The notes under the pieces: generated by a model
The model's input: only the letters and a program-made list of their open reading frames with translations
What the model was told of the DNA's origin: nothing
Databases searched by the model: none
Program-made: the position numbers and the translations under genes
In this document: positions 40,502 to 57,509 of the stretch, one piece after another
Numbering within the stretch: the first letter of the stretch is position 1
How the letters are laid out: the number at the start of each line of letters is the position of its first letter
Origin: Verrucomicrobiota bacterium
Lineage (GTDB): Bacteria > Verrucomicrobiota > Verrucomicrobiia > Opitutales > Opitutaceae
DNA length: 64,000 nt
Direction of reading: 5' to 3'
Assembly: GCA_016222805.1 (NCBI GenBank)
Contig: JACRQG010000005.1
Location: 105,645-169,644 of the forward strand

Positions 40502-41314
40502 TCAGCCAAACACGCGCTTCAGGTACGCCAGGCTGCGCGCCGCGATTTCCTCCGGCCCTTCATCGAACTTGAAGACCTCCACCGAGACCGTCCCGTCGTA
40601 ACCCACCTCGCGCAGGGCCGCGGCAATCGGCCCGAAGTCCACCTCGCCAAAGCCCGGCCCCTTCAGGTTCTTGTCGTTGGCGTGCACATAGGCGAATGCT
40701 CCGCGGCTCTCGCGGATGATCTGCGGCACCGGCTTGGCCTCGTGGCTCATGGCGCGCACGTCGAGGATCACCTGGAAGGCAGGGGAGCCCATCGCCCGGG
40801 CGAACCGCACCGCCTCCTCCGCCGTGTTCACGAAGTTCGTGTCCTCCGCCGGCAGGGGCTCGAAGCAAATCGTCACGCCGCGCCGCTCCGCCATCGCCAC
40901 GGAGGGCCGGAAAACCTCCTGCGCCCACGCCCACCCCTGCTCGGGTGTCACGCCGGGCAGCAGGCTCCGCTGCTTCGGCGACCCAACCACGATCACCTTG
41001 CCCCCCAGGTCGGCGCAGAAGTCCGCCAGGTCGCAGAAATACTGCGCCGTGCGCGCGCGCGTCGCCGCCTCCGGCGAGGTTACATACATGCCTTCCGCCT
41101 GCACCAGCACCCAATGGATGCCGGAGATCGCGACGCCGGCCCGCTCCGCCGCCCCGCGGATCCGCGCCCGCTCCGCCGGGGGAATCTCCGTGACGTGCTT
41201 CGCCAGCGTGAACGGCGCGATTTCCACCGCGTCGTAGCCAAGGCGCGCCGCGTAGGTGAAGACGTCGTCGATTTTCCAGCCCTGGAAGATCTCGTTGCAG
41301 ATGCCGAATTTCAT
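40502..41314 (-). CDS. sugar phosphate isomerase/epimerase-like TIM-barrel protein
   Basis: A 270-residue AP-endonuclease-2-like barrel (xylose-isomerase-like family). Likely metal ligands are Glu in CFEPLPAEDTNF, Asp in ILDVRAMSHE, His in YVHANDKN and Glu in VSVEVFKFDE. Members epimerise or isomerise ketoses such as tagatose or psicose, or act on inositol derivatives; the substrate is unknown here. The ATG at 41314 gives the standard MKFGICNE start. It diverges from the carbamate kinase gene but looks functionally separate. Confidence 0.82.
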   Translation of the reverse strand: MKFGICNEIFQGWKIDDVFTYAARLGYDAVEIAPFTLAKHVTEIPPAERARIRGAAERAGVAISGIHWVLVQAEGMYVTSPEAATRARTAQYFCDLADFCADLGGKVIVVGSPKQRSLLPGVTPEQGWAWAQEVFRPSVAMAERRGVTICFEPLPAEDTNFVNTAEEAVRFARAMGSPAFQVILDVRAMSHEAKPVPQIIRESRGAFAYVHANDKNLKGPGFGEVDFGPIAAALREVGYDGTVSVEVFKFDEGPEEIAARSLAYLKRVFG

Positions 41315-41610
41315 GGGAGGGAGCGAAGCCAGGGCGCATCCGCCACGGGGCGGGCACAACCCGGTCCGGACGTTGCGAGTTTCCCGGCCGCGTGGCCACG
41401 CCGAACTTCCGGCCAGCCCCCTTTTGCGCCGCGACGGGCCGCAACTCCCCTTTGGCTGATCTCGCCGGTCTCGGCGCGGCCGGCCGGGGTCGCCGCCCCC
41501 GGCTACAACTTGACCGAACCCCGCCAATCGCGGGAGGCCTCCGTCACTCGCGGCTCGTCAGGTCTCCTGTCCAATGCCAGACTACCGGCGCTTTTCCGGC
41601 CGACCTTCCT
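41315..41610. other. divergent intergenic region of 296 bases
   Basis: No gene seen. It separates the isomerase-like gene (-) from the carbamate kinase gene (+) and must hold both promoters, but no clear -35/-10 pair was found. Around 41482-41508 is a degenerate copy of the GGCCGGGGTCGCC..GGCTACA palindrome family. Confidence 0.4.
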
Positions 41611-42549
41611 GTGAAGACCCTTGTCATCGCCATCGGCGGCAACTCCCTCATCCGGGACGCCCGGCACATGAGCGTGCCCGACCAGTACGCCGCGATCGCG
41701 CAGACGGCGCGGCACATTGCCGATCTGCTGGAGCGCCGGCACCGGGTGGTGATCACCCACGGCAACGGGCCGCAGGTGGGCTTCATCCTGCGGCGGAGCG
41801 AGCACTCGCGCGGCATCCTGCACGAGGTGCCGCTCGATTCCATCGTCGCCGACACCCAGGGCGCGCTGGGCTACCAGATTCAGCAGGCGCTCGGCAACGA
41901 GTTCCGCCGCCGCGGACTTCCCCACCCCGTGGTATCCGTCGTCACGCAAACCCTCGTGCGCCCCGACGATCCCGCGTTCGCCGCGCCCAGCAAGCCGATC
42001 GGCGAATTCTACGCGCGCGGACCGGCGGAGGAGCGGATGCGCGTGGAGGGATGGCAGATGATGGAGGACGCCGGCCGCGGCTGGCGCCGCGTGGTCGCCT
42101 CGCCGCACCCCGTGCGGATCATCGAGGCGGACGCGATCCGGCGGTTGCTCGACGATGGGTGCGTGGTCGTGGCGGCGGGCGGCGGCGGGATTCCCGTGGT
42201 CGCCGATGACACCGGCGCGCTCCGGGGGGTCGCCGCCGTCGTCGACAAGGACCTCGCCTCGGCGGTTCTCGCCCACGAAATCGGCGCCGATCTGCTTGTC
42301 ATCTCCACCGCCGTGAACCGGGTCTGCGTGAACTACGGCCGGCCCGACCAGCGGGAACTCGAGTCGCTGACCGCCGCCGAGGCCCGCCGGCACCTCGACG
42401 AGGGGCAGTTTGCGCCGGGTTCGATGCGCCCGAAGATCGAGGCAGCCCTCCAGTTTCTGGCCGGAGGCGGCCGCGAGGTGCTCATCACCGGCACGGAGGC
42501 ACTCGGTCACGCCTTTGACGGCCACACCGGCACCCGCCTCGTGCCGTAG
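41611..42549 (+). CDS. arcC: carbamate kinase
   Basis: 312 residues from a GTG start. Amino-acid-kinase fold markers are GGNSL (residues 9-13), THGNGPQVG (about 49-57), VVAAGGGGIPV and AVVDKDLASA; GTEAL near the end is also typical. It converts carbamoyl phosphate and ADP to carbamate and ATP. It converges on the purine/pyrimidine-type operon and matches yqeA in the E. coli ygeW gene set, so its likely source of carbamoyl phosphate is the YgeW-type transferase next door, not arginine deiminase (no arcA in the window). The GTG at 41611 gives the normal VKTLVIAIGGN start. Confidence 0.92.
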   Translation: MKTLVIAIGGNSLIRDARHMSVPDQYAAIAQTARHIADLLERRHRVVITHGNGPQVGFILRRSEHSRGILHEVPLDSIVADTQGALGYQIQQALGNEFRRRGLPHPVVSVVTQTLVRPDDPAFAAPSKPIGEFYARGPAEERMRVEGWQMMEDAGRGWRRVVASPHPVRIIEADAIRRLLDDGCVVVAAGGGGIPVVADDTGALRGVAAVVDKDLASAVLAHEIGADLLVISTAVNRVCVNYGRPDQRELESLTAAEARRHLDEGQFAPGSMRPKIEAALQFLAGGGREVLITGTEALGHAFDGHTGTRLVP

Positions 42550-42550
42550 T

Positions 42551-42683
42551 ATGACTATGTTGCGTTGCCTGGCCGTCCCTCGATTTCCCTGTGGGCGGGG
42601 CGACCTCGCCCCGCGCCTTCCGCGTCGACGCCCGGTTCCCGCGGGGCGGAGTCGCCCCGCCCACACGATCGTAACACAGTCAT
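42551..42683. repeat. 133-base nested inverted-repeat element between convergent genes
   Basis: Outer arms of 14 bases (42551-42564 and 42670-42683) pair at 12 positions. Inside them two 26-base arms (42590-42615 and 42640-42665) pair at 24 positions, each itself a GGGGCGA..TCGCCCC-type palindrome. The element fills the gap between two convergent stop codons, so it could act as a bidirectional terminator and is probably a MITE/REP-type insertion. Confidence 0.7.
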
Positions 42684-42690
42684 GTTAGCC

Positions 42691-44151
42691 TCAGGAGGAG
42701 GCCCCCACGGTGGCGTTGAAGGCCTCGATCAGTGCGTCGAAAGTCCCGACCTCCTCCTCGAAGAGTTGGCGCCAGTAATCCGGATCCCACTGCTCCGTCA
42801 GTTCCCGGCTCGTCCGGCCCTGCTGCTCCACCCAGGTGAAGTACTTCAGGTGGTGGATCGCCTTCCGGTCGTGATAGCCGAGTTCCTTGAAGTGCTCCAC
42901 CCCCTGGTGCGCGAGCGGCCCGGCTAGGTCGGCGATGGCGTCGGGCGCGCGGTACGGACCGCGCTCGGCCGTCAGCTCCGCCAGGCGCGAACGATACAGA
43001 TCCAGCGAGTCGGTGAACACGGTGAAAATGACATCGCGCTCGTCGAACTCGAAGAACTTCGCCGTCTTGATCGCCGCGAGCAGGTTGGCGATCCCCGAGA
43101 TCCCGAGCCAGGGAAGGCGGTCCAGCGCGTCGACCGCGACCCCATGCGCCGCGAGATGCGCGCGTCCGGCGGGCTCGTTGAAGAGACGCAGCAGGCGCAG
43201 GCAGTCCTCATCGTCGATGGCGGCGACCGCGTCGGTATTTCGGACGTTGTGCACCCACGGCACGTGCTTGTCGCCGATGCCCTCGATGCGGTGATCGCCG
43301 AAGCCGTTGCACAGGAGCGTGGGACACTGGAGCGCCTCGGTGGCGACGATCCGCAGGCCCGGGTGATGCCGCTTCAGGTAATCGCCGGTGGCCAGGGTGC
43401 CGGCCGATCCGGTGGCCGAGACGAAGGCGGCCAGACGCACCCGCGGGTCGCCGAGGCCCGCGAAGACCTCTGCACAGGCCGGACCGGTGACGTTGTAGTG
43501 GAAGAGCGGATTTCCGAACTCCTCAAACTGGTTGAAGATGACGTGCCCGGGATCCCGCTTCAGTTCCCAGCACTTGTCGTAGATCTCCTTCACGTTCGAT
43601 TCGCACCCTGGGGTGGCGATGATCTCGGCGCCGATTTGCCGCAGCCACTCGAAACGCTCGCGGGACATCCGCTCGGGCAGGATGGCGACGGCCGTGCAGC
43701 CCAGGACGGCGCAATCAAAGGCGCCACCGCGGCAGTAGTTGCCAGTCGAGGGCCAGGCCGCCTTCTGCCGTGCGGGATCGAACTCCCCGCTCACGAGGCG
43801 CGGCACGAGGCAGCCGAAGGCGGCGCCGACCTTGTGCGCACCGGTGGGGAATGCCCGGCCCGTCAAGCCGATGACGCGCGCCCGGAGGCCGGTGATCTCC
43901 CGCGGCACCTCGAAGCAGTTCACCCCACCATAGCCGCCGGTCGCGAGGTCGTTCTTCCACGTGATCCGGAAGAGATTCAGCGGATTCACCTCGTGCAGGC
44001 CCACTCCCGGCAATCGGGCGCGGAGAGCGGCCGGCACCAGGGACGGATCACGCAGCTGGCGAAACGTCGGGATGACCACCCCGCGCTCGCGGCAGCGCGC
44101 GGCCGTGCGCGCGATGATCTCGGGGTGCTGGCGTTGGAGGATGCGGCTCAT
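42691..44151 (-). CDS. fold-type II PLP-dependent enzyme (cysteine-synthase-like)
   Basis: A 486-residue enzyme of the tryptophan-synthase-beta/cysteine-synthase fold. Lys107 in TGAHKVGAAFG is the likely Schiff-base residue; STGNYCRGGAF resembles the substrate-binding loop and VSATGSAGTLATGD the phosphate-binding Gly-rich loop. It is about 100 residues longer than YgeX or cysteine synthase, with a long C-terminal extension (about 380-486). It is the last gene of the operon, one base after the ygeW stop. The diaminopropionate ammonia-lyase YgeX holds a comparable place in E. coli, but this protein does not look orthologous, so a lyase role is inference. Confidence 0.8.
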   Translation of the reverse strand: MSRILQRQHPEIIARTAARCRERGVVIPTFRQLRDPSLVPAALRARLPGVGLHEVNPLNLFRITWKNDLATGGYGGVNCFEVPREITGLRARVIGLTGRAFPTGAHKVGAAFGCLVPRLVSGEFDPARQKAAWPSTGNYCRGGAFDCAVLGCTAVAILPERMSRERFEWLRQIGAEIIATPGCESNVKEIYDKCWELKRDPGHVIFNQFEEFGNPLFHYNVTGPACAEVFAGLGDPRVRLAAFVSATGSAGTLATGDYLKRHHPGLRIVATEALQCPTLLCNGFGDHRIEGIGDKHVPWVHNVRNTDAVAAIDDEDCLRLLRLFNEPAGRAHLAAHGVAVDALDRLPWLGISGIANLLAAIKTAKFFEFDERDVIFTVFTDSLDLYRSRLAELTAERGPYRAPDAIADLAGPLAHQGVEHFKELGYHDRKAIHHLKYFTWVEQQGRTSRELTEQWDPDYWRQLFEEEVGTFDALIEAFNATVGASS

Positions 44152-44152
44152 G

Positions 44153-45337
44153 TCAGGATTTCACCGGCGTACCTTCGATCAGGGCCCGAAGCGTGGCGAC
44201 CGGATCGCGCACGCGCGAAAGCAGGATCATCGCGGCGATCACAAACGGCTTCTGGCTCGCCTCCTGGTAGGTCGCGAGGCGGTGCTGCTCGAACACGTCG
44301 GCGGTCACCTCGCCTCGCTCACAGCTGACGCCCGAGATGTCGGCCGGCAGGCAGTGGAGGTAGATCCCCCGGCCTTCGCGGGTGAGCTTCATCTTGCGGG
44401 CATCGCACTCCCACGCCTGGTAACGCGCGTTTTGCGCGAGGCAGTCCCGCTCCAGCGCCTTGAGACCGGCCTGGTCGCCCCGCTTCAGGAGAGGCGTGCG
44501 CTGCTGCATTACCGCATAGGGCGCCCACGATTTGGGATAGACGACGTCGGCGTCCTGGAACGCCTCCTCCATGCTGCCGGCGAGCGCGAACGAGCCGCCG
44601 CTCCGCCCGGCGTTTCGGCGCGCCAGGTCCACGACGTCGGGAATCAGCCCGTAGCCCTCGGGATGCGCCAGCGTCACGTGCATGCCAAAGCGCGTGAGCA
44701 GGCCGATGATTCCCTGGGGCACGGAGAGCGGCTTGCCGTAGCTTGGCGAGTAGGCCCAGGTCATCGCGATCTTCCTGCCGCGCAGCTGCTCGAGCGAACC
44801 GAAGTGGTTCCGCAGGTGCATGAGGTCGGCCACGCTCTGCGTCGGGTGGTCGAGATCACACTGGAGGTTGATCACGCTGGGACGCTGGTGCAGCACGCCG
44901 CGCTCGTAACCCTCCTGCACCGCGGCGGCGACCTCGCGCATGTAGCGGTTGCCTTCGCCGAGGTACATGTCGTCGCGGATGCCGATCGTCTCCGCGGTGA
45001 AGGCGATCATGTTGGCGGTCTCGCGGACCGTCTCCCCATGGGCGATCTGGGACTTGCCTTCGTCGAGGTCCGCCACCGCGAGGCCGAGGGCATTGGCGGC
45101 GGACGCGAAGCTGAAGCGCGTACGGGTCGAGTTGTCGCGGAAGATCGAGACGGCGAGACCCGTGTCAAAGACGCGGATCGACTTCCGGGCCCGGTGCAGC
45201 CGGGCGAGACTGTCGGCGACCAGCGTCAGCGCGCGGATCTCCTCATCGGTCTTCTCCCACGTGAGCAGGAAGTCTTGTCCATGCAGGCCGAGTGGCAACG
45301 TGGCCAGGGCGGCGAGGTTCTCTTGCAGCGTCTTCAT
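44153..45337 (-). CDS. ygeW: knotted carbamoyltransferase YgeW
   Basis: 394 residues, very close to E. coli YgeW throughout. The carbamoyl-phosphate loop is S70-TRTR74, preceded by FRDN; KSQIAHGETVRETANM, HPTQSVADL and HCLPADISGVSC are all family signatures. YgeW belongs to the transcarbamylase superfamily; its natural acceptor is not settled, but it is thought to work in reverse, producing carbamoyl phosphate from a ureido intermediate of purine breakdown for carbamate kinase. The start overlaps the 2Fe-2S subunit stop by four bases (ATGA), and the second PLP enzyme follows after one base. Confidence 0.95.
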   Translation of the reverse strand: MKTLQENLAALATLPLGLHGQDFLLTWEKTDEEIRALTLVADSLARLHRARKSIRVFDTGLAVSIFRDNSTRTRFSFASAANALGLAVADLDEGKSQIAHGETVRETANMIAFTAETIGIRDDMYLGEGNRYMREVAAAVQEGYERGVLHQRPSVINLQCDLDHPTQSVADLMHLRNHFGSLEQLRGRKIAMTWAYSPSYGKPLSVPQGIIGLLTRFGMHVTLAHPEGYGLIPDVVDLARRNAGRSGGSFALAGSMEEAFQDADVVYPKSWAPYAVMQQRTPLLKRGDQAGLKALERDCLAQNARYQAWECDARKMKLTREGRGIYLHCLPADISGVSCERGEVTADVFEQHRLATYQEASQKPFVIAAMILLSRVRDPVATLRALIEGTPVKS

Positions 45338-45834
45338 GAAGGGGGTGAAACAAGCCCGTTGGCGGTTTCGCGGTCACGGTACGCGACCGCGGCGGCGGCG
45401 ATGGCGTCGATGATCTGCTGGTAGCCGGTGCACCGGCAGAGGTTGTGGCCGATCGCGGTGCGGATCTGCTCCCGCGTCGGGGTCGGATTCTTCCGCAGGA
45501 ACGCGTGGGCGGTGAGCACCATGCCCGGCGTGCAGAAACCACACTGAATCGCGCCGGCGTCGACAAACGCCTGCTGCAGCGGATGGAGCGTGCCGTCCGG
45601 CTCCGCGAGCCCCTCGATGGTCAGCAGGCGGTGGCCGGCGACATCCTTGACCCGCTTGAGGCAGATCTTCAGCGGCTCGTCGTCGATCAGGATGGTGCAG
45701 GCGCCGCAGGCCCCGATGTCACAGGCGTTCTTCGCCCCGGTGAGGTCCAGCTCCTCGCGCAGGTACTCGATCAGGCGCTTCTCGGCCAACGCCTCGTCGA
45801 CGGTGAGTTCGCGCCCGTTGAGGTGGAGTTTCAT
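45334..45834 (-). CDS. 2Fe-2S subunit of molybdenum hydroxylase (xanthine dehydrogenase family)
   Basis: A 166-residue iron-sulfur subunit with two [2Fe-2S] sites: the plant-ferredoxin-type C38, C43, C46, C58 (CDIGACGAC) and the helical-domain C98, C101, C133, C135 (CGFCTPG, CRCTGY). It passes electrons from the molybdenum centre. The stop of the large subunit overlaps its start by four bases, so the two are coupled. In E. coli XdhD this domain is fused to the molybdenum domain; here it is separate. No FAD subunit gene is present in the window. Confidence 0.92.
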   Translation of the reverse strand: MKLHLNGRELTVDEALAEKRLIEYLREELDLTGAKNACDIGACGACTILIDDEPLKICLKRVKDVAGHRLLTIEGLAEPDGTLHPLQQAFVDAGAIQCGFCTPGMVLTAHAFLRKNPTPTREQIRTAIGHNLCRCTGYQQIIDAIAAAAVAYRDRETANGLVSPPS

Positions 45835-48113
45835 GGCGCGCCCTCCGTGCTGGCCGGTTCAGGCCACGGCGGCGCCGGTCGCATCGGCAGCGAAAAGTGG
45901 CGGCGGCCGGTGGCATGGAAGAGGGCGTTGGCGACGGCCGGCGCCATGATCTCGTTGGTCGGCTCGCCGATGCTCTTGGCCCCCGACGGCGAGGCGGGAT
46001 CGGGGTTCTCGATGATGAGCGCCGTCATCTCCGGCACGTCGGTGGCGCGCGGGAGGCGGTAGGTATTGAGGTTGGTGTTGGTGATCCGGCCGTCCTTCAG
46101 CTTCACCTCCTCGTGGAGGGCGTAACCCAGGCCCATGACCATGCCGCCATAGAATTGCCCGGCCACCATGCCGGGGTTGATCGCGCGGCCGACATCGTGG
46201 GCGGCCACCGCGCCGAGGAGACGGACCTTGCCGGTCTGCTTGTGCACCGCGAGTTCCACCGCCTGGCAGCCATACACCCAGGTGAAGTAGGCATCGCCCT
46301 GCCCGGTCTCCTCGTCCCAGCTCACCGACGGCGCCCGGAAGACCGCGCAGGCATGGGGCCGCTCACGTTGCCGCCACACCGCCTGCACCGCCTCCAGAAA
46401 CGAGAGGCTCGCGCCCGCGGCGCCGTGAAGGCGGCCGTCGCCAAACCGCACCTCCGCGGGTGCGCAGCGAAGGGTCTCCGCCACTGCGGCCGCGAGCTTG
46501 CGCTTCAACTCCCGCGCCGCGAGCACCACCGCGCCCCCGCCCATGATTGTGCCCCGCGACGCCACGGTCGTGCCGCTGTCGGGAATCGTCGAGGTGGAGG
46601 CGCGCTGGCAACGGACCTGGTCGGGTTCCAGGCCGAGTTCACCGGCACAGAGGATGACCATCGCGGATTCCGCGCCCTGTCCGTTTTCGTGCACCCCCAA
46701 GTCGAGCACGACCGTGCCGTCGGCCTGGACGTTGAGGATGGCGGCGCACAGATCGACTCCCTCCGCGCCGAGGCTCACACCGCGGTAGCTCATCGCGAGA
46801 CCGATCCCGTAGAACTCGGCGGCGTCGGAGTGCCCGTGCGAGCAGCGGGAGAGCTTTCGCTCATAGTCGATCTCTTTCAGCACGGCCTCGAGCACCTCCC
46901 CCATCGAAACCGTGTGGTTGTCGAGCCGCTGGCCGGTGATGGTCACGCTGCCCTGCCGGACCATGTTGCGGCGACGAAACTCAATCCCGGAGAGGCCGGC
47001 CCGGGCTGCGGCGATCTCGACCATCTGCTCCACGACAAAGTTCATCTGCGGGGAGCCGAAGCCCCGCATCGCCCCGGTCACGACGTTGTTGGTGTAGACG
47101 CCCAGCGTGTCGCAGTGCACATGGGGCACGACGTAGGGCCCGCAGCACTGGACGGTCGAGCGCCAGGTGACCCAGGGGGTGACCGAACAGTAGGCGCCGC
47201 CGTCGGCGACGATGCGGCATTCCACCGCCGTGATGAGCCCGGCCGCCGACACGCCCATCCGGTAGTGCACGCGATAGGGATGGCGCTTGTAGCTTTCGCG
47301 GATCGACCAGCCGCGCTGGTACATTGTCTTGACCGGCCGGCCCAGCAGGCGGGCGGCGAGCGCGGTGCGGGCGCAGACGATCGCGGCGGTGTCGTCCTTG
47401 CCGCCGAAGCCGCCGCCCATCGGGGTGCCGACAACCTCCACCTGCGGTAGCGGACAGCCCAGGCAGGCCGCCACAAACCGACGGGTGCTGAAGGGGTGCT
47501 GCATGCTGCCGTGGATTTCGAACACGCCATCGGGGCGCGGCACCGCCACCGCGACCTCCGGCTCCAGATACGCGTGCTCAATGAACGGCGTGCGGAAGTC
47601 GTGCTCGATCACAAACGCCGCCTCCCGGAAACCGGCCTCCGGATCACCGCGCCGCACCCGGTGCGTGTTAATCAGGTTGGTGCCGCGTTCCTCGTGGACC
47701 AGGACCTCGTCCCGCAGCGCCACCTCCGGATCGAGCACCGCCGCCAGCGGGACCGTGTCGACGCGCACGAGCCGTCCGGCATGAATCGCCTGATCCCGCG
47801 TCTCCGCGACGACCACTGCGACCACATCGCCGTGGTACCGGATCTTGTCGTCGGCGAAGATACGGAAATCGGCGATGATCTGGCCGACGCGGTTGGCACC
47901 CGGCACATCGCGCGCCGTCAGCACCCGCACCACCCCGGGCGCGGCCGCCGCCGCGGCGGTCTCGACCGCCCGGAGCCGGGCGTGCACCTCGTCGGCGTAG
48001 ACCGGCACGGCATGGAGCAGCCGCGGGAACTTCAGGTCGTCCGTGTACTTGGTGCGTCCGGTGACCTTGGCGTGCGCGTCGTTGCGCCAATTGGCAGGAA
48101 ACGCGGGCGGCAT
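45831..48113 (-). CDS. molybdopterin-binding large subunit of xanthine-dehydrogenase-family enzyme
   Basis: A 760-residue molybdenum hydroxylase large subunit. Family motifs include GGGFGGKDD, GAMRGFGSPQMNF and, near the end, KSIGEPTNE, where Glu717 is the conserved catalytic base that lies next to Mo. The enzyme hydroxylates a purine-like ring with water; hypoxanthine, xanthine or another azaheterocycle is likely. Genome context (ssnA, ygeW, ygeY) matches XdhD. The start overlaps the threonine-synthase-like gene stop by one base. No selenium-insertion gene is visible, so selenium dependence cannot be judged. Confidence 0.92.
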   Translation of the reverse strand: MPPAFPANWRNDAHAKVTGRTKYTDDLKFPRLLHAVPVYADEVHARLRAVETAAAAAAPGVVRVLTARDVPGANRVGQIIADFRIFADDKIRYHGDVVAVVVAETRDQAIHAGRLVRVDTVPLAAVLDPEVALRDEVLVHEERGTNLINTHRVRRGDPEAGFREAAFVIEHDFRTPFIEHAYLEPEVAVAVPRPDGVFEIHGSMQHPFSTRRFVAACLGCPLPQVEVVGTPMGGGFGGKDDTAAIVCARTALAARLLGRPVKTMYQRGWSIRESYKRHPYRVHYRMGVSAAGLITAVECRIVADGGAYCSVTPWVTWRSTVQCCGPYVVPHVHCDTLGVYTNNVVTGAMRGFGSPQMNFVVEQMVEIAAARAGLSGIEFRRRNMVRQGSVTITGQRLDNHTVSMGEVLEAVLKEIDYERKLSRCSHGHSDAAEFYGIGLAMSYRGVSLGAEGVDLCAAILNVQADGTVVLDLGVHENGQGAESAMVILCAGELGLEPDQVRCQRASTSTIPDSGTTVASRGTIMGGGAVVLAARELKRKLAAAVAETLRCAPAEVRFGDGRLHGAAGASLSFLEAVQAVWRQRERPHACAVFRAPSVSWDEETGQGDAYFTWVYGCQAVELAVHKQTGKVRLLGAVAAHDVGRAINPGMVAGQFYGGMVMGLGYALHEEVKLKDGRITNTNLNTYRLPRATDVPEMTALIIENPDPASPSGAKSIGEPTNEIMAPAVANALFHATGRRHFSLPMRPAPPWPEPASTEGAP

Positions 48114-49357
48114 CAGCGAACTCCTTTCCCCGACAGGCGGTCGGCAACCGCGGCGAGGGCGGCGGGGTTCGGCTCGATGGCCGGCGGCACGCGCAGGCCG
48201 CGCAGCGCGGCGTCGACGTCCTTCAGGCCGTGTCCCGTGATCAGCAGCACGACCTGGTCCTGCCGCGGAAGCCGGCGGTCGCCCCGCAGTTTCCGCAACG
48301 CCGCCACGGTGGCCGCGGCGGCGGGTTCGGCAAAGATGCCGGTTTCTCCGGCGAGGAGACGCTGCGCCCGGAGGATCTCGGCATCGGTGACGGTAAGGGA
48401 GAATCCGTCGCTCGCCTCCACCGCGGCGCGAGCGAGGTGGGCGTTGGCCGGGACCGAGACCGAAATGGAGTCGGCGACGGTGTCGGGCCGCGTCGCATCG
48501 CGATACCGCCCGGTGCGGAGGTAATGGTGGAGCGCGGCGGAACGCTGCGCCTGGACGCAGATCAACCGCGGCACGCGCGGGATGAGGCCGGCCGCCCGGA
48601 GATCGGCGAAGGCCTTCGCCACTCCGGCCAGGATCACGCCATCGCCGACCGGCACCACAATCGCCGCCGGCACGCGCCAGCGGTTCTGCGCGGCGATCTC
48701 GAGACCGACGGTCTTCTTCCCCTCGATCGTCAGGGGATGATAGGCGGTGTTGCGGTTTAGGCCCCCGTAGCGCGCCGTGTACTCGAGCGAGAGGCGGAAA
48801 GCGTCGTCATAGGTGCCGCGCACCGGCACGACGCGGGCCCCGTGCGCCAGCATCTGGGCAAGCTTGGGTCGGGGCGCAGTGGCGGGAACGAAGATGATCG
48901 CCTTCCGGCGGGCCGCGGCGCAGGTCGCCGCCAGGGCGCTGGCGGCGTTGCCGGTGGAGGCGGTGACCACCGTGGTTTCCCCGAGGCGGGCGGCCTCCGC
49001 CACGACGAGGAACGAGGCCCGGTCCTTCAGCGAGCCGCTCGGGTTCTGCCCGTCGTTCTTGATCCACACATCGGCAAAACCGAGGGCGCGGCCAAGCGCC
49101 GGCGAACGGAAGAACGGCGTGTTTCCCACCGGATAGGGCGGATAAAACCTCGGTTCGACGGCGGAAAACAGGTTCCAGTCCGGCGCCCGTTTCTCGAACC
49201 GGCGCCGAATCGCGGCGTACTCGAACTCGACGCTGAGCACACCGGCCAACGGCCGCCCCGGAGTGTACCCCCGCGAGCAGTCCGGGCAGAGGTAACGCAC
49301 CTCGTCCCGCGCGTAGTGCCGGCCGCACGTCGGGCAGAGGTAGCGGAACGCGGTCAT
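48113..49357 (-). CDS. threonine-synthase-like PLP enzyme with zinc ribbon
   Basis: A 414-residue fold-type II PLP enzyme. The N-terminus has a zinc-ribbon-like pair of CxxC motifs (C8, C11, C24, C27), as in class I threonine synthases; Lys111 in NPSGSLKDRAS is the Schiff-base lysine, with STGNAASALAA as the substrate loop. It lies inside the nucleobase-degradation operon, overlapping its neighbour by one base, which argues against threonine synthesis. A beta-elimination role, for example 2,3-diaminopropionate ammonia-lyase like YgeX, is plausible but unproven. Confidence 0.85.
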   Translation of the reverse strand: MTAFRYLCPTCGRHYARDEVRYLCPDCSRGYTPGRPLAGVLSVEFEYAAIRRRFEKRAPDWNLFSAVEPRFYPPYPVGNTPFFRSPALGRALGFADVWIKNDGQNPSGSLKDRASFLVVAEAARLGETTVVTASTGNAASALAATCAAARRKAIIFVPATAPRPKLAQMLAHGARVVPVRGTYDDAFRLSLEYTARYGGLNRNTAYHPLTIEGKKTVGLEIAAQNRWRVPAAIVVPVGDGVILAGVAKAFADLRAAGLIPRVPRLICVQAQRSAALHHYLRTGRYRDATRPDTVADSISVSVPANAHLARAAVEASDGFSLTVTDAEILRAQRLLAGETGIFAEPAAAATVAALRKLRGDRRLPRQDQVVLLITGHGLKDVDAALRGLRVPPAIEPNPAALAAVADRLSGKGVR

Positions 49358-49360
49358 TGC

Positions 49361-50614
49361 TCACACCCGGCCGTTCATCCGGGCCACCAGCGCGGCGTAG
49401 AAGGCGACGGCGCTGCTCAGGTGCGCGACCGGGCAGGCCTCGTTGACGGCATGGGCGTGGACCTCATGGCCCGGGCCCAGGCCGAGGCAGGGAGTTCCCC
49501 GCCGACCCGCAATCGCAACCGCATTGGTGCTGAAGGTCCACTTGTCGACGAGCGGCGCGCGGCCCAGCACTCCGGTGTAGGCCGCCACGGCGTCGCGCAG
49601 GTACGGGGAATCCTCCGCCAGCGTCCAGGTGGGGAAGTACTTCTCCATCGGGTACACCTTGCCCGTGTACGCCCGTTCCTCGCTGTGCAGCACCCCGACC
49701 TGCGCGTCGGGCACGCCGGCCCGTTCCGCCGCCGCGCGCACCTCGGCCAGGGCACTTTCCATCGTCTCGCCGGCCGTCAGCCGTCGATCGAGGTGCAGGC
49801 TGGCCTCATCGGGGACGGCGCAGAGCGAGGGAGACGACGATCGGACCTCGGTGACCGTGACGGTGCCCTGCCCCAGGAAGGGATCCTGGCGCAACTTTCC
49901 GTTGAGCCGTTCGACCTCGAGCGCGATGCGGGCGATCTTGTAGATCGCGTTGTCGCCGCGCTCAGGCGCCGAGCCGTGGCAGCTGCGGCCCTTGGCCACG
50001 ACGCGGATCTCCATCCGGCCGCGGTGGCCGCGGTAGAGGTTGAGGTTGGTCGGCTCGGTGATCACCACAAACTCGGGCCGCAGCCCCTCCTCCTCCCACA
50101 GGTACTGCCAGCACAGGCCGTCGCAGTCCTCCTCCATCACCGTGGCGGTGAAGTAGAGCGAGAACTGCTCGTTCAGGCCCAGCTCGCGCACCAGGCGCCC
50201 GGCATGGATCATGGCGGCGACGCCGCCCTTCTGATCCACCGTGCCGCGGCCCCAGATTTTTCCCTCCTCCACCTTGGGAGTGAACGGATCGAAGCTCCAC
50301 TGGCTCAGATCTCCCGGGTAGACGGTGTCGATGTGGCCGTCGAACGCCACCACCCGCGGCCCACGCCCCAACCGGCCGATGACATTCCCGAGCCCGTCGA
50401 CGCGCACCTCGTCGAAGCCGCAGGCGCGCATCTCGCGCTCCACGACCGGCGCGACGTCCTGCTCCTTGCCGGAGAACGACCGGGTGCGGACGAGGTCGGC
50501 GAGGAAGCGGACGGTGTCGTTTTCGAGTTCCTGCGCGCGGGCGTGAATGGTCCGGTAAAGACCCGGCGAGGAGGAGGCGGCGGGAGCGGCGTTGGAGTTC
50601 ACAGGCGTTGCCAT
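49361..50614 (-). CDS. ygeY: YgeY-family M20-type metallohydrolase
   Basis: 417 residues of the M20/ArgE/DapE fold and the 'selenium-metabolism-linked hydrolase' YgeY branch. Metal-site motifs are FDGHIDTV (about 94-101), TVDQKGG, TVMEEDCDGL (Glu pair) and VITEPTN. The family hydrolyses amide bonds of small metabolites such as N-acyl or N-carbamoyl amino acids. It is three bases before the threonine-synthase-like gene and overlaps ssnA by 16 bases. The ATG at 50614 starts a short flexible leader; a later start is possible. Confidence 0.9.
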   Translation of the reverse strand: MATPVNSNAAPAASSSPGLYRTIHARAQELENDTVRFLADLVRTRSFSGKEQDVAPVVEREMRACGFDEVRVDGLGNVIGRLGRGPRVVAFDGHIDTVYPGDLSQWSFDPFTPKVEEGKIWGRGTVDQKGGVAAMIHAGRLVRELGLNEQFSLYFTATVMEEDCDGLCWQYLWEEEGLRPEFVVITEPTNLNLYRGHRGRMEIRVVAKGRSCHGSAPERGDNAIYKIARIALEVERLNGKLRQDPFLGQGTVTVTEVRSSSPSLCAVPDEASLHLDRRLTAGETMESALAEVRAAAERAGVPDAQVGVLHSEERAYTGKVYPMEKYFPTWTLAEDSPYLRDAVAAYTGVLGRAPLVDKWTFSTNAVAIAGRRGTPCLGLGPGHEVHAHAVNEACPVAHLSSAVAFYAALVARMNGRV

Positions 50615-51930
50615 AGACGGGTGGCGAGCCGGCGGGCGCGCGCGTGGAGGCGCGCCTCGTCGAGGTCGAGAGTGAGCTGGCGGTGGCGCATGAGCACGCG
50701 CCCATCGACGATCGTGGTGTCGATGGCGGCCTGGGAGAGGCCGAAGACGAGGTGGCCGGCCCAGTTTCCGCGGGTGAGCGGGGTCGGTGGATCGTAGTCG
50801 GCAATCACGACATCGGCGGCCGCGCCTTCGGCGAGCCGCCCGAGGGGCCGCCCGAAGATCTGCGACGCAATTCGGGCATTGTTGACCGTCAGCGCGCGAA
50901 CCACCTCGGCAAATCCGACCGACGGGTTCCCCGCCCGCAGGTGCTGGGCCCAAAGCGCCACGCGAAGCTCCTCCAGGAGGTTGGCGGTCATGGCGTCCGT
51001 GCCGAGTCCGACCCGGACGCCGCGCGCGGCCAGGGCGACGACATCGGCGATGCCGACGGCGTTGTTGAGGTTCGACTGCGGGTTGTGGATCGCGGCGGTT
51101 CCGGTCTCGGCAAGCAGGTCCATCTCCCTCCGGCCGACGTGAATGCAGTGGGCCGCGAGCGTCCGCTCGCCGAGGATGCCCGCGTGCGCGAGGCGCGCGA
51201 CCACACTCCGGCGATGCCGGCGGCGCGCGATCGTCTGATCGGAGGGAGCTTCGGCGACGTGGAGGTGGAATCCCGCGCCGAGGTCGCGGGCCAAGCCAAC
51301 GGCCGCGTCCAGCGTGCGATCGGAAAGCGTGAACGATGCGTGCAGGCCGAACAGGCCCGCGAGGTGCGGATCCGGGGCACGCTGGCAGCGCCGGAGGAAG
51401 GCGGCGTTTTCCGCGAGCCCGGCGCGGGCGATCCCCGCCCCGCCGCGATCGGACACCTCGTAGCAAAGACAGGCCCGCATGCCGGTCGCCCGCACGGCGC
51501 GTGCGAGGGCGTCGAGCGAACCCTCGACGGCGTTTGGGCTCGCGTGGTGATCAATTACCGTCGTGGTGCCGTGGCGGATCGAATCGATCAGGCCGAGCAG
51601 CGCACTCACGTGGCAGTCCTCCGTCGTCAGCGCGGAATCCAGCCGCCACCAGAGGTGGCGCAGCACCTCGCCGAAGTCCGTCGCCGGCCGCGTCTTCGTC
51701 ATCCCCCGGGCGAACGCGCTGTACCAGTGGGTGTGCGCGTTGATCAGTCCCGGCAGGACAACCTGCCCGCTGGCGTCGAGACGACGGCCGCGGAACGATG
51801 CCAGGGCCCGCGCCGGTGCGATCCGCGCGATCCGGCCGTCTTCGATCAGCACCGAGTGCCCGGGCAGCACGGCTGTCTTTTCCCCCCCGGTGAGGATCGT
51901 CCCGTTGTCGATGAGGAGCGGCGCGGTCAT
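50599..51930 (-). CDS. ssnA: SsnA-type amidohydrolase
   Basis: 443 residues of the metal-dependent amidohydrolase superfamily (cytosine/guanine deaminase branch), closely like E. coli SsnA: LWWRLD, VIDHHASP and the late STPTPL-type stretch are shared. Metal ligands are H66 and H68 (NAHTH), the His in HLHVAEA, the His in LAAHCIH and the Asp in GLGTDAM. A purine or ring-opened intermediate is the likely substrate. The stop overlaps the ygeY start by 16 bases, and the upstream flavoprotein gene is nine bases away. Confidence 0.92.
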   Translation of the reverse strand: MTAPLLIDNGTILTGGEKTAVLPGHSVLIEDGRIARIAPARALASFRGRRLDASGQVVLPGLINAHTHWYSAFARGMTKTRPATDFGEVLRHLWWRLDSALTTEDCHVSALLGLIDSIRHGTTTVIDHHASPNAVEGSLDALARAVRATGMRACLCYEVSDRGGAGIARAGLAENAAFLRRCQRAPDPHLAGLFGLHASFTLSDRTLDAAVGLARDLGAGFHLHVAEAPSDQTIARRRHRRSVVARLAHAGILGERTLAAHCIHVGRREMDLLAETGTAAIHNPQSNLNNAVGIADVVALAARGVRVGLGTDAMTANLLEELRVALWAQHLRAGNPSVGFAEVVRALTVNNARIASQIFGRPLGRLAEGAAADVVIADYDPPTPLTRGNWAGHLVFGLSQAAIDTTIVDGRVLMRHRQLTLDLDEARLHARARRLATRLWQRL

Positions 51931-51939
51931 GGGGGAGGC

Positions 51940-54432
51940 TCAATGCCGGGCCAGCGCGGCGGTCTCGGCGGCGGTGCGCGGGTGGAGCCGGATCGCGCCC
52001 GCGAAGCAGCCCTGCGCGCAGAGCGAGCAGCCGATGCAGCGGCTGGCATCAAAGGTCGGGAGGCCGCGCCGGTTGAGCGCGACCGCCTGGTACGGGCAGT
52101 GCGTGCAGTTGCCGCAGTGGACACACGCTGACGCCGTCACGCGCGGCAGCTTCTTGGCCGCCGGCAGCGCGGCGAAATCCGTGATTGGCGCAGGTTGCGC
52201 CGCCCCGAGGAGTTCCGCGACCGAACGCAGGCCGCGCTCCGCCAGCAGGTGACTCAGCCCGCGGTGCAGCTCGTCCACGACGCCCAGCCCGTACTTCATC
52301 ACGATCGAGCAGAACTGCACGGTGCGGGCACCGAGGGCGAGGAAGTGCGCGGCGGCGCGATAATCCATCGGCCCGCCATTGCCGGAGATCACCAGGCCCA
52401 GGCCGGCCGCCCGCGCGAGGGTGAGGTTGCTAATCGGCAGCACGCCCTCGCCTGAAAGACCCACGATCACGCCCTCGTCCCACCGCCGATCCGCGGTGGC
52501 GCGGAACGCCAGCGCGGGAAAGCTGTTGGCCAGCGTCACGCCCGCCAACTTGTGCGGGTACTTCGCCAACACCGCCTGGATCGCGCGCAGGATCGGCGCG
52601 ATCGCCGTGACCGCCGCGGTCAGCTTGAAGAGCTTCGGACAGTCGGCCCGACCCGCGGCCATGACCCAGTCGACGATTCGCGCCGTGAGGGCGGCGTTCT
52701 GGGACACGAGATCGCCGTCCGTGCCATCACCGCCCTGGGGGCAGGACAGGCTGTACTCCACGCCCATGGCGCCGGCGTTCTCGAGCTGGCGGGTATTCGC
52801 CTGCCACCCGGCGCAATCCTCGTCGTCGCGGCCGGTGACCGGTCCGCCCGTGGAGGCCAGCGTGAGGCGATCCGGATAATCCCGCACCAGGCGCGCGACC
52901 TCGCCGCAGACCCGATCCAGCCGGTGACCCGATACGTTGTCGCAGTTGCCGTAGGTCGCGGGGCCGAAGCGAAACAGGTATTCGCCGGGGATGTGGATCG
53001 GCCCGTGGGCGAAGGCCGTCTTCATCACTCCACCCGCCCAACCACACTCGTATGCCAGCCGCATCGGCTCGTAGCCATCCGTGTGCGGCGCGGCCGACAG
53101 CAGGAAGGGCGAGACGATCGGCCGGCCGAAAAACTCCGCCGCGAGCGGCACCGGCAGCTCCCCCACGCCCGCGAGCAGCACGCGGCTCTTGGCCCGCCGG
53201 CCTTGGCGCGGCCGGGGCAAGTTGCGCAGGAACGCGTCGGCCGCGAGCGCGGCGTTCTTCCCCGTCGCCACCGCCTCGACCACGGTGGCGGCGCCGAGCA
53301 GGAGGTCCCCGGCGTAAAACACGCCCCGGGCCTTCCGGATCGGCACGCCGGCACGGCTGCCGATGGCCGAGATCACCACGTCGAACTCGCGGAAGATCGG
53401 CGACTCCTTCCGGCTAACGACGAAGTTCTCCGGCCTCGGCGCCCGCCCGGCCGGCAACGCCAGTCGCGCCAGCCGCAAGCCAGTCACTCGCCCGCCCACG
53501 CGCACGATTGCGAGGGGCCGCACGCCGCTCGAGATCTCCACGCCGTGCGCCAGCAGTTCGCCCCGCTCATACGCCGTGAGCGGCATGTGCTCCTGCTTCC
53601 GCCGGTAGATCAGCTCCACCGCCTGCGCCCCGTGCCGCACGGCGGTGGTCGCGCAGTCGACGGCGATGGCCCCGCCGCCCAGCACCGCCACCCGTTTCCC
53701 CGCCACGTCGATCCGGCGACCCTCCTGGAGATACTCCAGCCACGACCACGCCGCCTCCTCCCCCGGGATGCCGAGCCGCGCCGGCTCGCTCAGACCCGCG
53801 GCCACGATGACGGCGTCGTGCCCGCCCGCTCCCAGCAGTCCGGCCGGATCCGGCACCCCGGCGCCGAACCGGAACGTGATCGCCCCCAGCCCCGCCAGAT
53901 AAGCCACATCCGCCCGCAGTACGCGGCGGTCTAGCCGCGCCGCCGGGATTCGATTGACCATGCCCCCCGCCCGCCGGCCCCGCTCGAACACCGTCACCCG
54001 ATACCCCAGCCGAGCCAGCACGGCCGCCGCCGCCAGCCCCGCGGGCCCGGCGCCGACGACCGCCACCGTCCGGCCATTCCACGTCGGCGCCGCGGGTCCG
54101 CGCAGTCCAGCCTCCCGCCCGCGCCGCACCAGCGTTGCCTGCACCGCCGGAATCGCGATCGCACCATCGATCCGCCGCCGCGCGCACGCGGCCACGCAAA
54201 ACGTATCCGGGCACACCGCCCCGCAGACGCCTCCGAGCGGGTTGGCCGCCAGGATCATCTCCGCCGCCCGGCGGTAGTCCGCCGGCGCTCCCACCCGCGC
54301 CGCCAGGATGAAGTCCGCCGGGGAACAGTGCGCCGGACAGGCCTCCTGGCACGGCTTCGTGGCGCAATACGCACACCGTTCCAGTTCCGCTCGCAACTGG
54401 GCCTCACCGAGGGATCCATCGCGCGGTTTCAT
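51940..54432 (-). CDS. dihydropyrimidine-dehydrogenase-like Fe-S flavoprotein (PreT-PreA-type fusion)
   Basis: 830 residues. N-terminal helical Fe-S domain with two cysteine sets (C20, C23, C28, C32/C36; C70, C74, C79, C83; NPLGGVCGAVCP is DPD-like); FAD fold VVGAGPAGLAAA (about 125-136); NAD(P) fold VAVLGGGAIA (about 248-257); a dihydroorotate-dehydrogenase-like FMN barrel (about 420-745) with Cys564 in SLSCPQGGDG, where DPD has its catalytic Cys; and a C-terminal ferredoxin domain (C770-C779, C799-C809). The domain order is that of mammalian DPD or fused PreT-PreA. The first ferredoxin motif is one residue short of the usual C-x2-C-x2-C-x3-C. It occupies the place of ygfK in the E. coli set and follows dihydropyrimidinase. 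Confidence 0.85.
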   Translation of the reverse strand: MKPRDGSLGEAQLRAELERCAYCATKPCQEACPAHCSPADFILAARVGAPADYRRAAEMILAANPLGGVCGAVCPDTFCVAACARRRIDGAIAIPAVQATLVRRGREAGLRGPAAPTWNGRTVAVVGAGPAGLAAAAVLARLGYRVTVFERGRRAGGMVNRIPAARLDRRVLRADVAYLAGLGAITFRFGAGVPDPAGLLGAGGHDAVIVAAGLSEPARLGIPGEEAAWSWLEYLQEGRRIDVAGKRVAVLGGGAIAVDCATTAVRHGAQAVELIYRRKQEHMPLTAYERGELLAHGVEISSGVRPLAIVRVGGRVTGLRLARLALPAGRAPRPENFVVSRKESPIFREFDVVISAIGSRAGVPIRKARGVFYAGDLLLGAATVVEAVATGKNAALAADAFLRNLPRPRQGRRAKSRVLLAGVGELPVPLAAEFFGRPIVSPFLLSAAPHTDGYEPMRLAYECGWAGGVMKTAFAHGPIHIPGEYLFRFGPATYGNCDNVSGHRLDRVCGEVARLVRDYPDRLTLASTGGPVTGRDDEDCAGWQANTRQLENAGAMGVEYSLSCPQGGDGTDGDLVSQNAALTARIVDWVMAAGRADCPKLFKLTAAVTAIAPILRAIQAVLAKYPHKLAGVTLANSFPALAFRATADRRWDEGVIVGLSGEGVLPISNLTLARAAGLGLVISGNGGPMDYRAAAHFLALGARTVQFCSIVMKYGLGVVDELHRGLSHLLAERGLRSVAELLGAAQPAPITDFAALPAAKKLPRVTASACVHCGNCTHCPYQAVALNRRGLPTFDASRCIGCSLCAQGCFAGAIRLHPRTAAETAALARH

Positions 54433-54550
54433 GACACGGGGTCAACCGCCCGGCAGGGCGGTGCAATCGCCGGAGGATAGAAGGTCCGTTCCCGGCGCTC
54501 TGCGCATTTCTTGGCCAATCGTCCGCACCACGGCGGCCGGTGGCCGGCGA

Positions 54551-55954
54551 TCAGGCCGCGGAGTCCGCCAGTTCCGACGGGCGCACCTTGCGCGCGAGAA
54601 AGCGACCGCGGCCCGGCGAACCGGCAAAGCGGCCGTCGCGCACCATGACCTCGCCGCGCACGGTCACCACGACCGGGCTCCCTTCGTACCGCCAGCCCTC
54701 GAAGGCGCTGTAGTCGACGTTCATGCGGTGAGTCCGCGCCGAAATCACGCCGCCCCGCCGCGGATCGAACACCACCAGATCCGCGTCGGCCCCCACCGCG
54801 ACGGTGCCCTTGCGCGGATACAACCCGAAGATTTTCGCCGCCCGCGTGCTCGCCGCGTTCACCAGCGTCGGCAATTCGATCCGCCCCGCCCCCACTCCGT
54901 AGGTGTGCAGAAGCTTCACCCGCTCCTCGATCGCGGGGATTCCGTTTGGAATCTGCGTGAAGTCGCCCCGCCCCCGCGCCTTCTGCGTGGCGAAATCGAA
55001 CGGCGCGTGATCCGTCGCCACCGTGTCGATGTGCCCCGCCCGCAAGGCCTCCCACAGCACCGCCTGGTGCCGCGCCTCTCGCAGCGGCGGCGACATGATG
55101 TACTTCGCTCCCTCGAAATCCGGCCGCTCCGCCCAGGTCTTGTCCAGCAACAGATGCTGGATCACCGCCTCGATCCTCGCACGCACACCGCGCCGCCGCG
55201 CCGCCAGGGCCACCTCCAGCGCCTCCGCACAACTGGTGTGCGCGAGGTAGGTCTCCGCCCCGGTCAACTCCGCAAACGTCAACAGATGGTGGACGCCCTC
55301 CGCTTCCACCACCGGCGGCCGGCTGTCGTGGTGCGCCGCCGGCTCCGTCCGCCCGGCCGCCAGGAGCTCGCGGGCGCGCTCGGTCACCAGCGTCGCGTTC
55401 TCGCAGTGGGCCGCGACGATCACGTTGAGCTCGCGCGCCAGCCGCAACACCCCGTAGAGCGCCGCGTCGTCGAGCCCGTAGACGCCCTGGTAGGCGAGGA
55501 AGATTTTGAGCGACGTCACCCCGCCGGCCACAATCTCCCGCACCTGCGCCTCGGTGTGGGCATCCCACCGCGCCACGCCCAGGTGAAACGAATAATCGCA
55601 GGCCGCCCGCCCGGCGGCCGCCGCCTGCCAGCGAGCGTAGCTCTCCCGGAGATCGTCACCGGTCTCCGGGCAGCACATTTCGATGACGGTGGTCGTGCCT
55701 CCAACCAGCGCCGCCTGGGTGCCCGAGGCAAAGTCATCCTTTGCCGTCGTCACCCGCCCGGGCAGGTGAAGGTGCACATGCGGATCGATGAAGCCGGGAA
55801 AAACCAGACATCCCCGGGCGTCGATCACCTCCGCGCCCGGCGGCACCGGGAGATCCGGCCCGACCGCGGTGATGATCTCGCCTTCGCACGCCACATCCGC
55901 CGCTTCACGGCTCGTCGCCGTGACCACCTCGCCACCTTTGAAAAGAAGCCCCAT
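54551..55954 (-). CDS. hydA: dihydropyrimidinase / hydantoinase (HyuA-like)
   Basis: 467 residues of the cyclic amidohydrolase family. DPHVHLH gives metal ligands H59 and H61, Lys150 in SLKIFLAYQG is the carboxylated bridging lysine, and VAAHCEN, LAHTSC and ATDHAPF supply the remaining ligands. It opens dihydropyrimidine or hydantoin-like rings to N-carbamoyl products. First gene of the nine-gene operon, 118 bases ahead of the DPD-like gene. In E. coli HyuA (phenylhydantoinase) is the counterpart. No regulator gene is next to it. Confidence 0.92.
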   Translation of the reverse strand: MGLLFKGGEVVTATSREAADVACEGEIITAVGPDLPVPPGAEVIDARGCLVFPGFIDPHVHLHLPGRVTTAKDDFASGTQAALVGGTTTVIEMCCPETGDDLRESYARWQAAAAGRAACDYSFHLGVARWDAHTEAQVREIVAGGVTSLKIFLAYQGVYGLDDAALYGVLRLARELNVIVAAHCENATLVTERARELLAAGRTEPAAHHDSRPPVVEAEGVHHLLTFAELTGAETYLAHTSCAEALEVALAARRRGVRARIEAVIQHLLLDKTWAERPDFEGAKYIMSPPLREARHQAVLWEALRAGHIDTVATDHAPFDFATQKARGRGDFTQIPNGIPAIEERVKLLHTYGVGAGRIELPTLVNAASTRAAKIFGLYPRKGTVAVGADADLVVFDPRRGGVISARTHRMNVDYSAFEGWRYEGSPVVVTVRGEVMVRDGRFAGSPGRGRFLARKVRPSELADSAA

Positions 55955-57305: not shown

Positions 57306-57509
57306 GGCACCGGAGATTCGCCGCCACCGTGGCCCGGGAGGCAAGAGAAAGCCCCGGTGAACTCACCAGCGAACGTTGCCCCCGCGTCGCCACAACCGCG
57401 GCCCGCCGCCGACCGGCATAGGGCGATCCGTGCGGGGACCGCGACACCGGGAAGCTCCCCCACGCGGATTCCTTTGCCCCGCCGGGCGCCGGAGTATTCG
57501 CTGCCCGTC

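Follow-up and report, generated by a model that had tools for sequence, protein, structure and literature searches.

A Verrucomicrobiota operon that probably encodes a widespread variant of the reductive urate pathway

Introduction

The ygeW-ygeX-ygeY-hyuA-yqeA / ygfK-ssnA-ygfM-xdhD cluster of Escherichia coli encodes a reductive urate pathway that ends in diaminopropionate and pyruvate (Li et al. 2025, PMC12507026). Urate is converted to yanthine by XdhD or XdhAC, yanthine is reduced by YgfK or by the PydA homologue UacX, and SsnA and then HyuA open the rings; YgeW (which yields carbamoyl phosphate and ATP) or UacY, YgeY and the pyruvate-forming YgeX complete the route (PMC12507026, PMC12990295). 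In Clostridioides difficile, UacX stands in for YgfK, the molybdenum (Mo) enzyme lacks a flavin adenine dinucleotide (FAD) subunit, and XdhD is only 25.63% identical to E. coli XdhD, whose Glu606 may orient urate, as Li et al. suggest (PMC12507026). Here we analyze a 64,000-nucleotide stretch of a Verrucomicrobiota (Opitutaceae) genome (assembly GCA_016222805.1, contig JACRQG010000005.1, positions 105,645 to 169,644; hereafter the window) and propose that a ten-gene cluster within it very probably specifies a variant of this pathway for anaerobic uric acid breakdown.

The phyla given for SsnA in the consulted text of PMC12507026 are Pseudomonadota, Bacillota, Chloroflexota, Actinomycetota, Spirochaetota and Elusimicrobiota, without Verrucomicrobiota, and a commentary leans toward a recent gut origin or adaptation of the pathway (PMC12990295). 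Termite-gut urate degraders and their routes are described as unknown (PMC9137090).

Results

The ten open reading frames (ORFs) of the cluster, all present and open, form a real gene block. Nine minus-strand genes span 42691-55954, from HyuA (55954) to PLP-A (42691), a pyridoxal phosphate (PLP) enzyme, and converge with a plus-strand carbamate kinase that lies 141 bases past the last gene of the operon. In order of window position, with bit scores set against curated cut-offs, the genes are:

41611..42549, plus strand, GTG start: carbamate kinase of the YqeA/ArcC type (PRK12352, 385 against 266; arcC, 359.1 against 358.25)
42691..44151, minus strand: PLP-A, a 486-residue fold-type II PLP enzyme with a core like CysK and cystathionine beta-synthase (CBS) and long ends (under every curated NCBIfam cut-off)
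44153..45337, minus strand: YgeW knotted carbamoyltransferase (NF005538, 651 against 453; TIGR03316, 619 against 500)
45334..45834, minus strand: 2Fe-2S subunit of a molybdenum hydroxylase (Fer2_2 and Fer2; NF043084 XdhC, 166, under the cut-off of 217)
45831..48113, minus strand: molybdopterin-binding subunit, candidate urate-to-yanthine reductase (MoCoBD_1 and MoCoBD_2)
48113..49357, minus strand: PLP-B, a threonine-synthase-like PLP enzyme with four conserved N-terminal cysteines (TIGR00260 thrC, 181 against 167)
49361..50614, minus strand: YgeY, an M20-family hydrolase (NF009555, 516 against 321)
50599..51930, minus strand: SsnA aminohydrolase (NF005540, 502 against 444; TIGR03314, 475.5 against 455.5)
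51940..54432, minus strand: reductase of the putative UacX/PydA type with dihydropyrimidine dehydrogenase (DPD) architecture (alignment to DPD 1gt8; Asp611/Ser668 signature)
54551..55954, minus strand: HyuA D-hydantoinase/dihydropyrimidinase (TIGR02033, 524 against 393)

NCBIfam scores were obtained with the carbamate kinase taken from codon 5 and YgeY from codon 12. The first-pass annotation had described nine packed genes facing a carbamate kinase with overlaps of 1, 4, 4 and 16 bases, and these values are exact: Mo/ThrC-like (PLP-B) overlap by 1, YgeW/2Fe-2S and 2Fe-2S/Mo by 4 each, and YgeY/SsnA by 16, taking the YgeY start as the ATG at 50614. The other junctions are gaps of 1 (PLP-A/YgeW), 3 (ThrC-like/YgeY), 9 (SsnA/DPD-like) and 118 bases (DPD-like/HyuA).

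The proposed match to the ygeW-type purine/urate cluster of E. coli also held, with YgeW, YgeY, SsnA, the hydantoinase and the carbamate kinase all passing curated NCBIfam cut-offs, as PLP-B does for thrC. No cut-off was reached by PLP-A, the Mo subunit or the 2Fe-2S subunit, nor by the DPD-like protein among its 25 listed of 83 families. Identities to E. coli MG1655 proteins are 66% for YgeW, 51% for YgeY, 45% for carbamate kinase (YqeA), 43% for the 2Fe-2S subunit (XdhC), 38% for HyuA and 34% for SsnA.

If the proteins act like their characterized counterparts in E. coli and C. difficile, urate would be reduced to yanthine (2,8-dioxopurine) by the Mo/2Fe-2S pair, and yanthine is the compound that the DPD-architecture flavoprotein would reduce with electrons from NAD(P)H passed through FAD, Fe-S and flavin mononucleotide (FMN) centers. 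Ring opening would follow, by SsnA on the six-membered ring and by HyuA on the hydantoin, to yield 2,3-diureidopropionate; YgeW would phosphorolyse one ureido group to carbamoyl phosphate, from which carbamate kinase would make ATP, and YgeY would hydrolyse the other, leaving 2,3-diaminopropionate. For the last steps, where only position and fold guide the assignment, PLP-A (CysK/CBS-like) and PLP-B (threonine-synthase-like) may take over from YgeX in removing the amino groups, and pyruvate could pass to the pyruvate:ferredoxin oxidoreductase of the host (1742 bits against a cut-off of 911). The anaerobic purine/urate breakdown foreseen by the first-pass annotation thus stands, as a pathway since characterized biochemically; ATP formation via carbamoyl phosphate, which Li et al. 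ascribe to YgeW, stands too, with its source moved from a ring carbon to a ureido group of diureidopropionate (PMC12507026).

The closest solved structure to the reductase is DPD 1gt8, which we take to be the pig enzyme (residues 7-765, E=1.8e-53), and the protein comprises Fer4_20, an FAD/NAD(P)H module, an FMN barrel recognized from alignment to DPD/PreA, and a C-terminal ferredoxin-like part. Fer4_21 scores 26.3 bits, below its cut-off of 35, and a Pfam scan returned no PF01180 match at E<=1e-4. The protein falls short of the YgfK (153 bits against 835) and PreA (169 against 335) models, and it aligns with E. coli YgfK over the FAD part only (30% over 425 columns). Since it combines the missing PF01180 match with failure of the YgfK model, the published SsnA survey may, we infer, have missed labeling reductases of this kind. 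No protein of the host genome matches PreA at the curated cut-off; in this search the reductase reaches 171 bits, and the best score after it, 42 bits, belongs to a DHOD-like gene adjoining the pyruvate:ferredoxin oxidoreductase.

Counting residues on the 1gt8 alignment, the reductase keeps, within NLSCPHG, a cysteine that is presumably the active-site cysteine of DPD. In DPD numbering, conservation extends to positions 609, 670, 671 and 736; at 737 there is a Ser, or a Thr in some relatives. Two positions, which we take to belong to the uracil-contacting site, are changed: Glu611 to Asp and Asn668 to Ser. Full-length reductases occur in 17 of the 20 genomes searched (the host and 16 others at 51-68% identity; none in G389, G393 or G401), and all 17 carry Asp611/Ser668, as do five stand-alone barrels (L073, L077, L079, L096 and L128, with L073 and L096 being records of one metagenome-assembled genome, or MAG). 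Four of these 17 genomes (G283, G387, G394 and G395) encode a second DPD, which in every case has Glu611/Asn668, like E. coli PreA, and which has HyuA within a few genes in two of the four. As judged from these alignments, the residue pair Asp611/Ser668 distinguishes reductases of the cluster type from those of the uracil type.

Gene neighborhoods point in the same direction. In the window operon, as in three genomes without the remaining block nearby (L176-L178), SsnA and the reductase are neighbors. The DNA upstream of the reductase was read in 12 genomes (G283, G388, G390, G392, G394, G395, G398, G399, G400, G402, G403 and G404), some of them covered by a few kb only, and in four (G390, G394, G395 and G399) the reductase is immediately preceded by same-strand xanthine dehydrogenase (XDH) genes. 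Scored for the first three of these, the large subunit reaches 881.6 bits in G390 and 858.3 in G394 against the TIGR02965 cut-off of 849.5, and is 1.1 bits short in G395; the small subunit reaches 467.3 in G399 against the TIGR02963 cut-off of 467 and falls below it, at 393-413, in the other three. The host genome (7.9 Mb, 95.6% complete) encodes its own XDH away from the operon, a 1549-residue fusion whose large part scores 952 against 849.5 and whose small part, at 452, is below 467.

The same evidence bears on a reductive pyrimidine route, raised as a rival in the first-pass annotation, in which the DPD-like protein would reduce uracil, HyuA would open dihydrouracil and YgeY would act as ureidopropionase, with the other genes carried along. 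Such a route would account for the DPD architecture, for a hydantoinase/dihydropyrimidinase above its cut-off that is 63-64% identical to the HyuA proteins adjoining PreT/PreA in G283 and G387, and for a host without another PreA over the cut-off. It gives no role to YgeW, the Mo pair or the PLP pair, however, and it sits poorly with SsnA beside the reductase and with XDH genes adjoining it in 4 of 12 genomes. The strongest evidence against it, as far as residues can tell, is that separate Glu611/Asn668 copies exist in four of the same genomes whose cluster reductases all carry Asp611/Ser668. With this signature disfavoring uracil as the substrate, we regard the pyrimidine route as very unlikely.

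Within the urate pathway that we favor, the first step is the weakest because the Mo subunit is distant from XdhD (26% identity, and 29% to XdhA) and lacks the XdhD Glu606 motif. The enzyme is split into a Mo and a 2Fe-2S subunit, the operon encodes no FAD subunit, and the only FAD_binding_5 domain of the host lies in the fused XDH. The first-pass annotation had reported this arrangement correctly as a difference from the E. coli cluster; the C. difficile Mo enzyme already lacks an FAD subunit (PMC12507026). The pair could instead act on another azaheterocycle, or oxidize a 2-oxopurine to yanthine so that a purine other than urate enters the same route. The absence of the Glu606 motif, which XdhD-like proteins of other Verrucomicrobiota clusters (L040 and L063) keep, favors such a substrate, as does the failure of the pair to reach any NCBIfam XDH cut-off. 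By contrast, the separate host XDH could supply urate, and low identity is not decisive given a C. difficile XdhD about equally distant from that of E. coli (PMC12507026). On balance, another substrate for the pair seems unlikely.

Several relatives have a second amidohydrolase between PLP-B and the Mo subunit (L087 4730-6070, L110 5113-6090 and L126 5089-6078). That of L087 scores 273 bits against the hydantoinase cut-off of 393, and these proteins are perhaps the local HyuA.

As first noted, the two PLP enzymes are dissimilar and occupy the place of ygeX, matching E. coli YgeX weakly (37% over 49 columns and 22% over 180); the host genome contains no YgeX match at E<=1e-10, and the operon has these two PALP enzymes instead. 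For PLP-A, the best curated family is cysK (101 bits, under the cut-off of 351), and sequence matches to CysK/CBS span at most about residues 79-343 of 486. Lys107 is invariant in 41 of 41 aligned sequences, which also share invariant motifs of their own. An AF2 model built from 41 sequences (pLDDT 92.6) resembles cystathionine beta-synthase, cyanoalanine synthase and CysK, with a best Foldseek E of 1.2e-17; because the modeled fold is that of CBS and cysteine synthase, beta-elimination or beta-replacement on 3-amino- or 3-ureido-alanine would fit. PLP-B has C8, C11, C24 and C27 invariant in 7 of 7 aligned sequences and exceeds the thrC cut-off while missing that of PRK08197 (247 against 303). 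From its context, threonine synthase activity is doubtful.

A search of 387 genomes of the phylum with profile A1 found PLP-A in 39, comprising every one of the 25 whose YgeW exceeds the cut-off and 14 of the remaining 362 (Fisher P about 1e-29, kinship ignored). Kinship alone is unlikely to explain the association, because the 25 genomes span nine families. The 14 comprise three YgeW-like genomes, G121 (with YgeW fragments), G294 and nine others, mostly of a divergent group. Among the 11 of these not classed as YgeW-like, SsnA (E<=1e-90) occurs in two (G294 and G121), compared with 0 of 11 PLP-A-negative controls. When the 25 and the three YgeW-like genomes are pooled, PLP-A is present in 28 of 28, SsnA in 27 at E<=1e-90 (24 over its cut-off), PLP-B proper (>500 bits) in 24, against 0 of 8 control genomes, and YgeX-like genes in 9. 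Three have PLP-A alone (G055, G052 and G040), 16 PLP-A and PLP-B, eight all three and one PLP-A with YgeX. Within this sample, PLP-A therefore appears to be a component family tied to the pathway. Close to the host, YgeW exceeds its cut-off in 2 of the 37 listed genomes of family f1 (the host and G283, which also has the operon) and was not found over it in the same-genus genome G010.

Two proposals for PLP-A were set aside. That it plainly replaces YgeX was dropped as a firm claim, given the nine genomes in which YgeX-like genes coexist with it, and that it suffices alone in G055 was rejected on finding another PALP gene between PLP-A and YgeY there.

PLP-A and PLP-B might alternatively form an ancillary amino-acid system that, for example, reuses diaminopropionate by beta-replacement, rather than acting as lyases at the end of the pathway. 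The modeled PLP-A fold, typical of beta-replacement and beta-elimination enzymes, is compatible with this role, as are the 9 of 28 genomes in which YgeX-like genes accompany PLP-A, eight of which have PLP-B too. In the remaining 19, with no YgeX-like gene at E<=1e-10, something must replace YgeX, and YgeW is immediately followed by PLP-A both in the window operon and in relatives that share its synteny. We consider the ancillary role a minority possibility, and terminal lyases remain our preferred reading.

A Verrucomicrobiota subgroup of PLP-A-like proteins (L194-L202) shows, where scored, 44-52% identity to the PLP-A of the window and occurs without SsnA (E<=1e-90) or YgeW over the cut-off. 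Its loci have only two neighbor families in common, at three loci each.

The block is not confined to one phylum. A contig scan with PLP-A confirmed at least 562 relatives, of which the best 80 were kept; their gene content was read from BLAST hits, which may include general PALP or Mo paralogues. Among these best 80 of at least 562 stretches, 51 contain SsnA, YgeW or YgeY, 34 have a PLP-B hit and one has a YgeX hit; in 23, PLP-A is the sole query gene, and clustering of the neighboring genes gave no clue to function. Three genomes of the last group were searched (L107 and L109, Elusimicrobiales; L112, whose title gives no phylum), and each has the reductase and SsnA adjacent elsewhere. The full set of SsnA, YgeY, PLP-B, Mo, FeS, YgeW and PLP-A is present in 12 of the best 80:

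L071, L072, L073, L079, L087, L094, L099, L101, L110, L116, L126 and L138 (the last being the G283 contig)

L073 and L079 have another gene order, and the titles of the remaining ten records read Opitutae, Verrucomicrobiia, Bacteroidetes, LCP-89, Myxococcota, Deltaproteobacteria, Ca. Syntrophosphaera, Ignavibacteriales and Cloacimonadota. The PLP-A of L087 (Bacteroidetes) is almost identical to that of L081 (Ignavibacteriae), so one of these two labels may be wrong, which leaves four or five other phyla. Looser versions occur in Acidobacteriota, Planctomycetota and Elusimicrobiota records. The fused reductase adjoins SsnA in 7 of the 10 full-set stretches, and in G399 (L116), and lies apart from it in Ca. 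Syntrophosphaera (G398) and a Cloacimonadota MAG (G400).

The recurrence of this gene order in other phyla shows that the block is no chance assembly. In a quick PLP-A tree (84 rows, no gut Bacillota), starred branches require the Verrucomicrobiota label to change at least three times, a pattern that may reflect transfer, with a possible contribution from binning errors or paralogues. No record title names a gut source; a few isolate names (fen, LacPavin, SlDig) point to fens, lakes and digesters, and most titles give no habitat. In L065 (G374) and L121 (Elusimicrobia), each cluster has two adjacent, diverged YgeW-like carbamoyltransferases.

Around the operon, a xylose-isomerase-like TIM-barrel gene (40502-41395) and a cytidylyltransferase-like gene (39927-40427), presumably CoaD-like, lie beside the carbamate kinase with no obvious operon link. 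A separate, catabolic-looking block at 29418-36490 encodes a major facilitator superfamily transporter, a BNR-repeat protein, an FAD oxidoreductase, an HpcH/HpaI aldolase and a GntR/periplasmic-binding-type regulator. On the other flank are two divergent BNR-repeat proteins (56118-57344 and 57474-59330), a long protein with several CxxCH haem motifs (59462-61861) and a sulfatase (61743-63503).

Discussion

Our assignment of the operon to reductive urate breakdown must be set against several observations that speak against it. First, the low identity of HyuA to its E. coli counterpart, compared with its closeness to the enzymes beside PreT/PreA, suggests that it may be a pyrimidine enzyme by origin, and reading upstream of the reductase revealed no HyuA in the relatives G283 and G388. 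Second, the sole PF00860 permease of the host sits elsewhere in the genome, outside the operon. Third, the Mo subunit departs from XdhD in both overall identity and the Glu606 motif. Finally, neither PLP enzyme closely resembles YgeX; PLP-B has Thr/Asn at the positions of YgeX Asp120 and Asp189, which we take to be catalytic residues, and nine PLP-A-like genes, mostly of a 640-660-bit group, occur in genomes without SsnA at E<=1e-90.

More broadly, the variant is, on gene content, widespread and its pathway known, rather than a Verrucomicrobia oddity, because the block recurs in records of four or five other phyla. The occurrence of the block in records of several phyla, none of them titled as coming from a gut, makes the origin of the pathway a testable question. 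As a tentative proposal, which we would not yet favor, the cluster could represent an old, mainly environmental form that ends in a new two-enzyme PLP system, pairing PLP-A with PLP-B or with a protein like PLP-B, which acts on diaminopropionate or its ureido precursor by a chemistry different from that of YgeX; its yanthine reductase would be a repurposed full-length DPD marked by Asp611/Ser668. The gut form would in that case be a derived offshoot, contrary to the recent gut adaptation suggested in PMC12990295. A PF00291 survey would count PLP-A, a conserved family apparently tied to the pathway, as YgeX, and the Asp611/Ser668 signature offers a way to tell cluster-type from uracil-type reductases.

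Set beside the E. coli cluster, the operon has in common a Mo hydroxylase, a flavin reductase and the families of YgeW, YgeY, SsnA, HyuA and carbamate kinase; its reductase has DPD architecture where E. coli has YgfK, its Mo enzyme is split and has no YgfM, YgeX gives way to two different PLP enzymes, and the nine genes form a single compact operon. As published descriptions have it (PMC12507026, PMC12990295), the C. difficile and Clostridium sporogenes clusters (UacX, UacY, XdhAC) have a Mo enzyme without an FAD subunit and a PydA-type reductase, the type to which the window reductase putatively belongs. Replacement of YgfK by a DPD-type flavoprotein was correctly read in the first-pass annotation, and a PydA homologue already takes that place in C. 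difficile. The clostridial UacX lacks the FAD domain present in the window reductase; where C. difficile uses the hydrolase UacY, the window has YgeW and carbamate kinase, and it has no YgeX. The full-length DPD architecture is not described for this pathway in the consulted text of PMC12507026 or in PMC12990295. The reductase shares its domain order and active-site cysteine with DPD 1gt8 and E. coli PreT/PreA, and differs in Asp611, Ser668 and its location with SsnA. PLP-A, in turn, shares a fold-type II core with CysK and CBS, from which its own invariant motifs, long ends and scores below the curated cut-offs set it apart.

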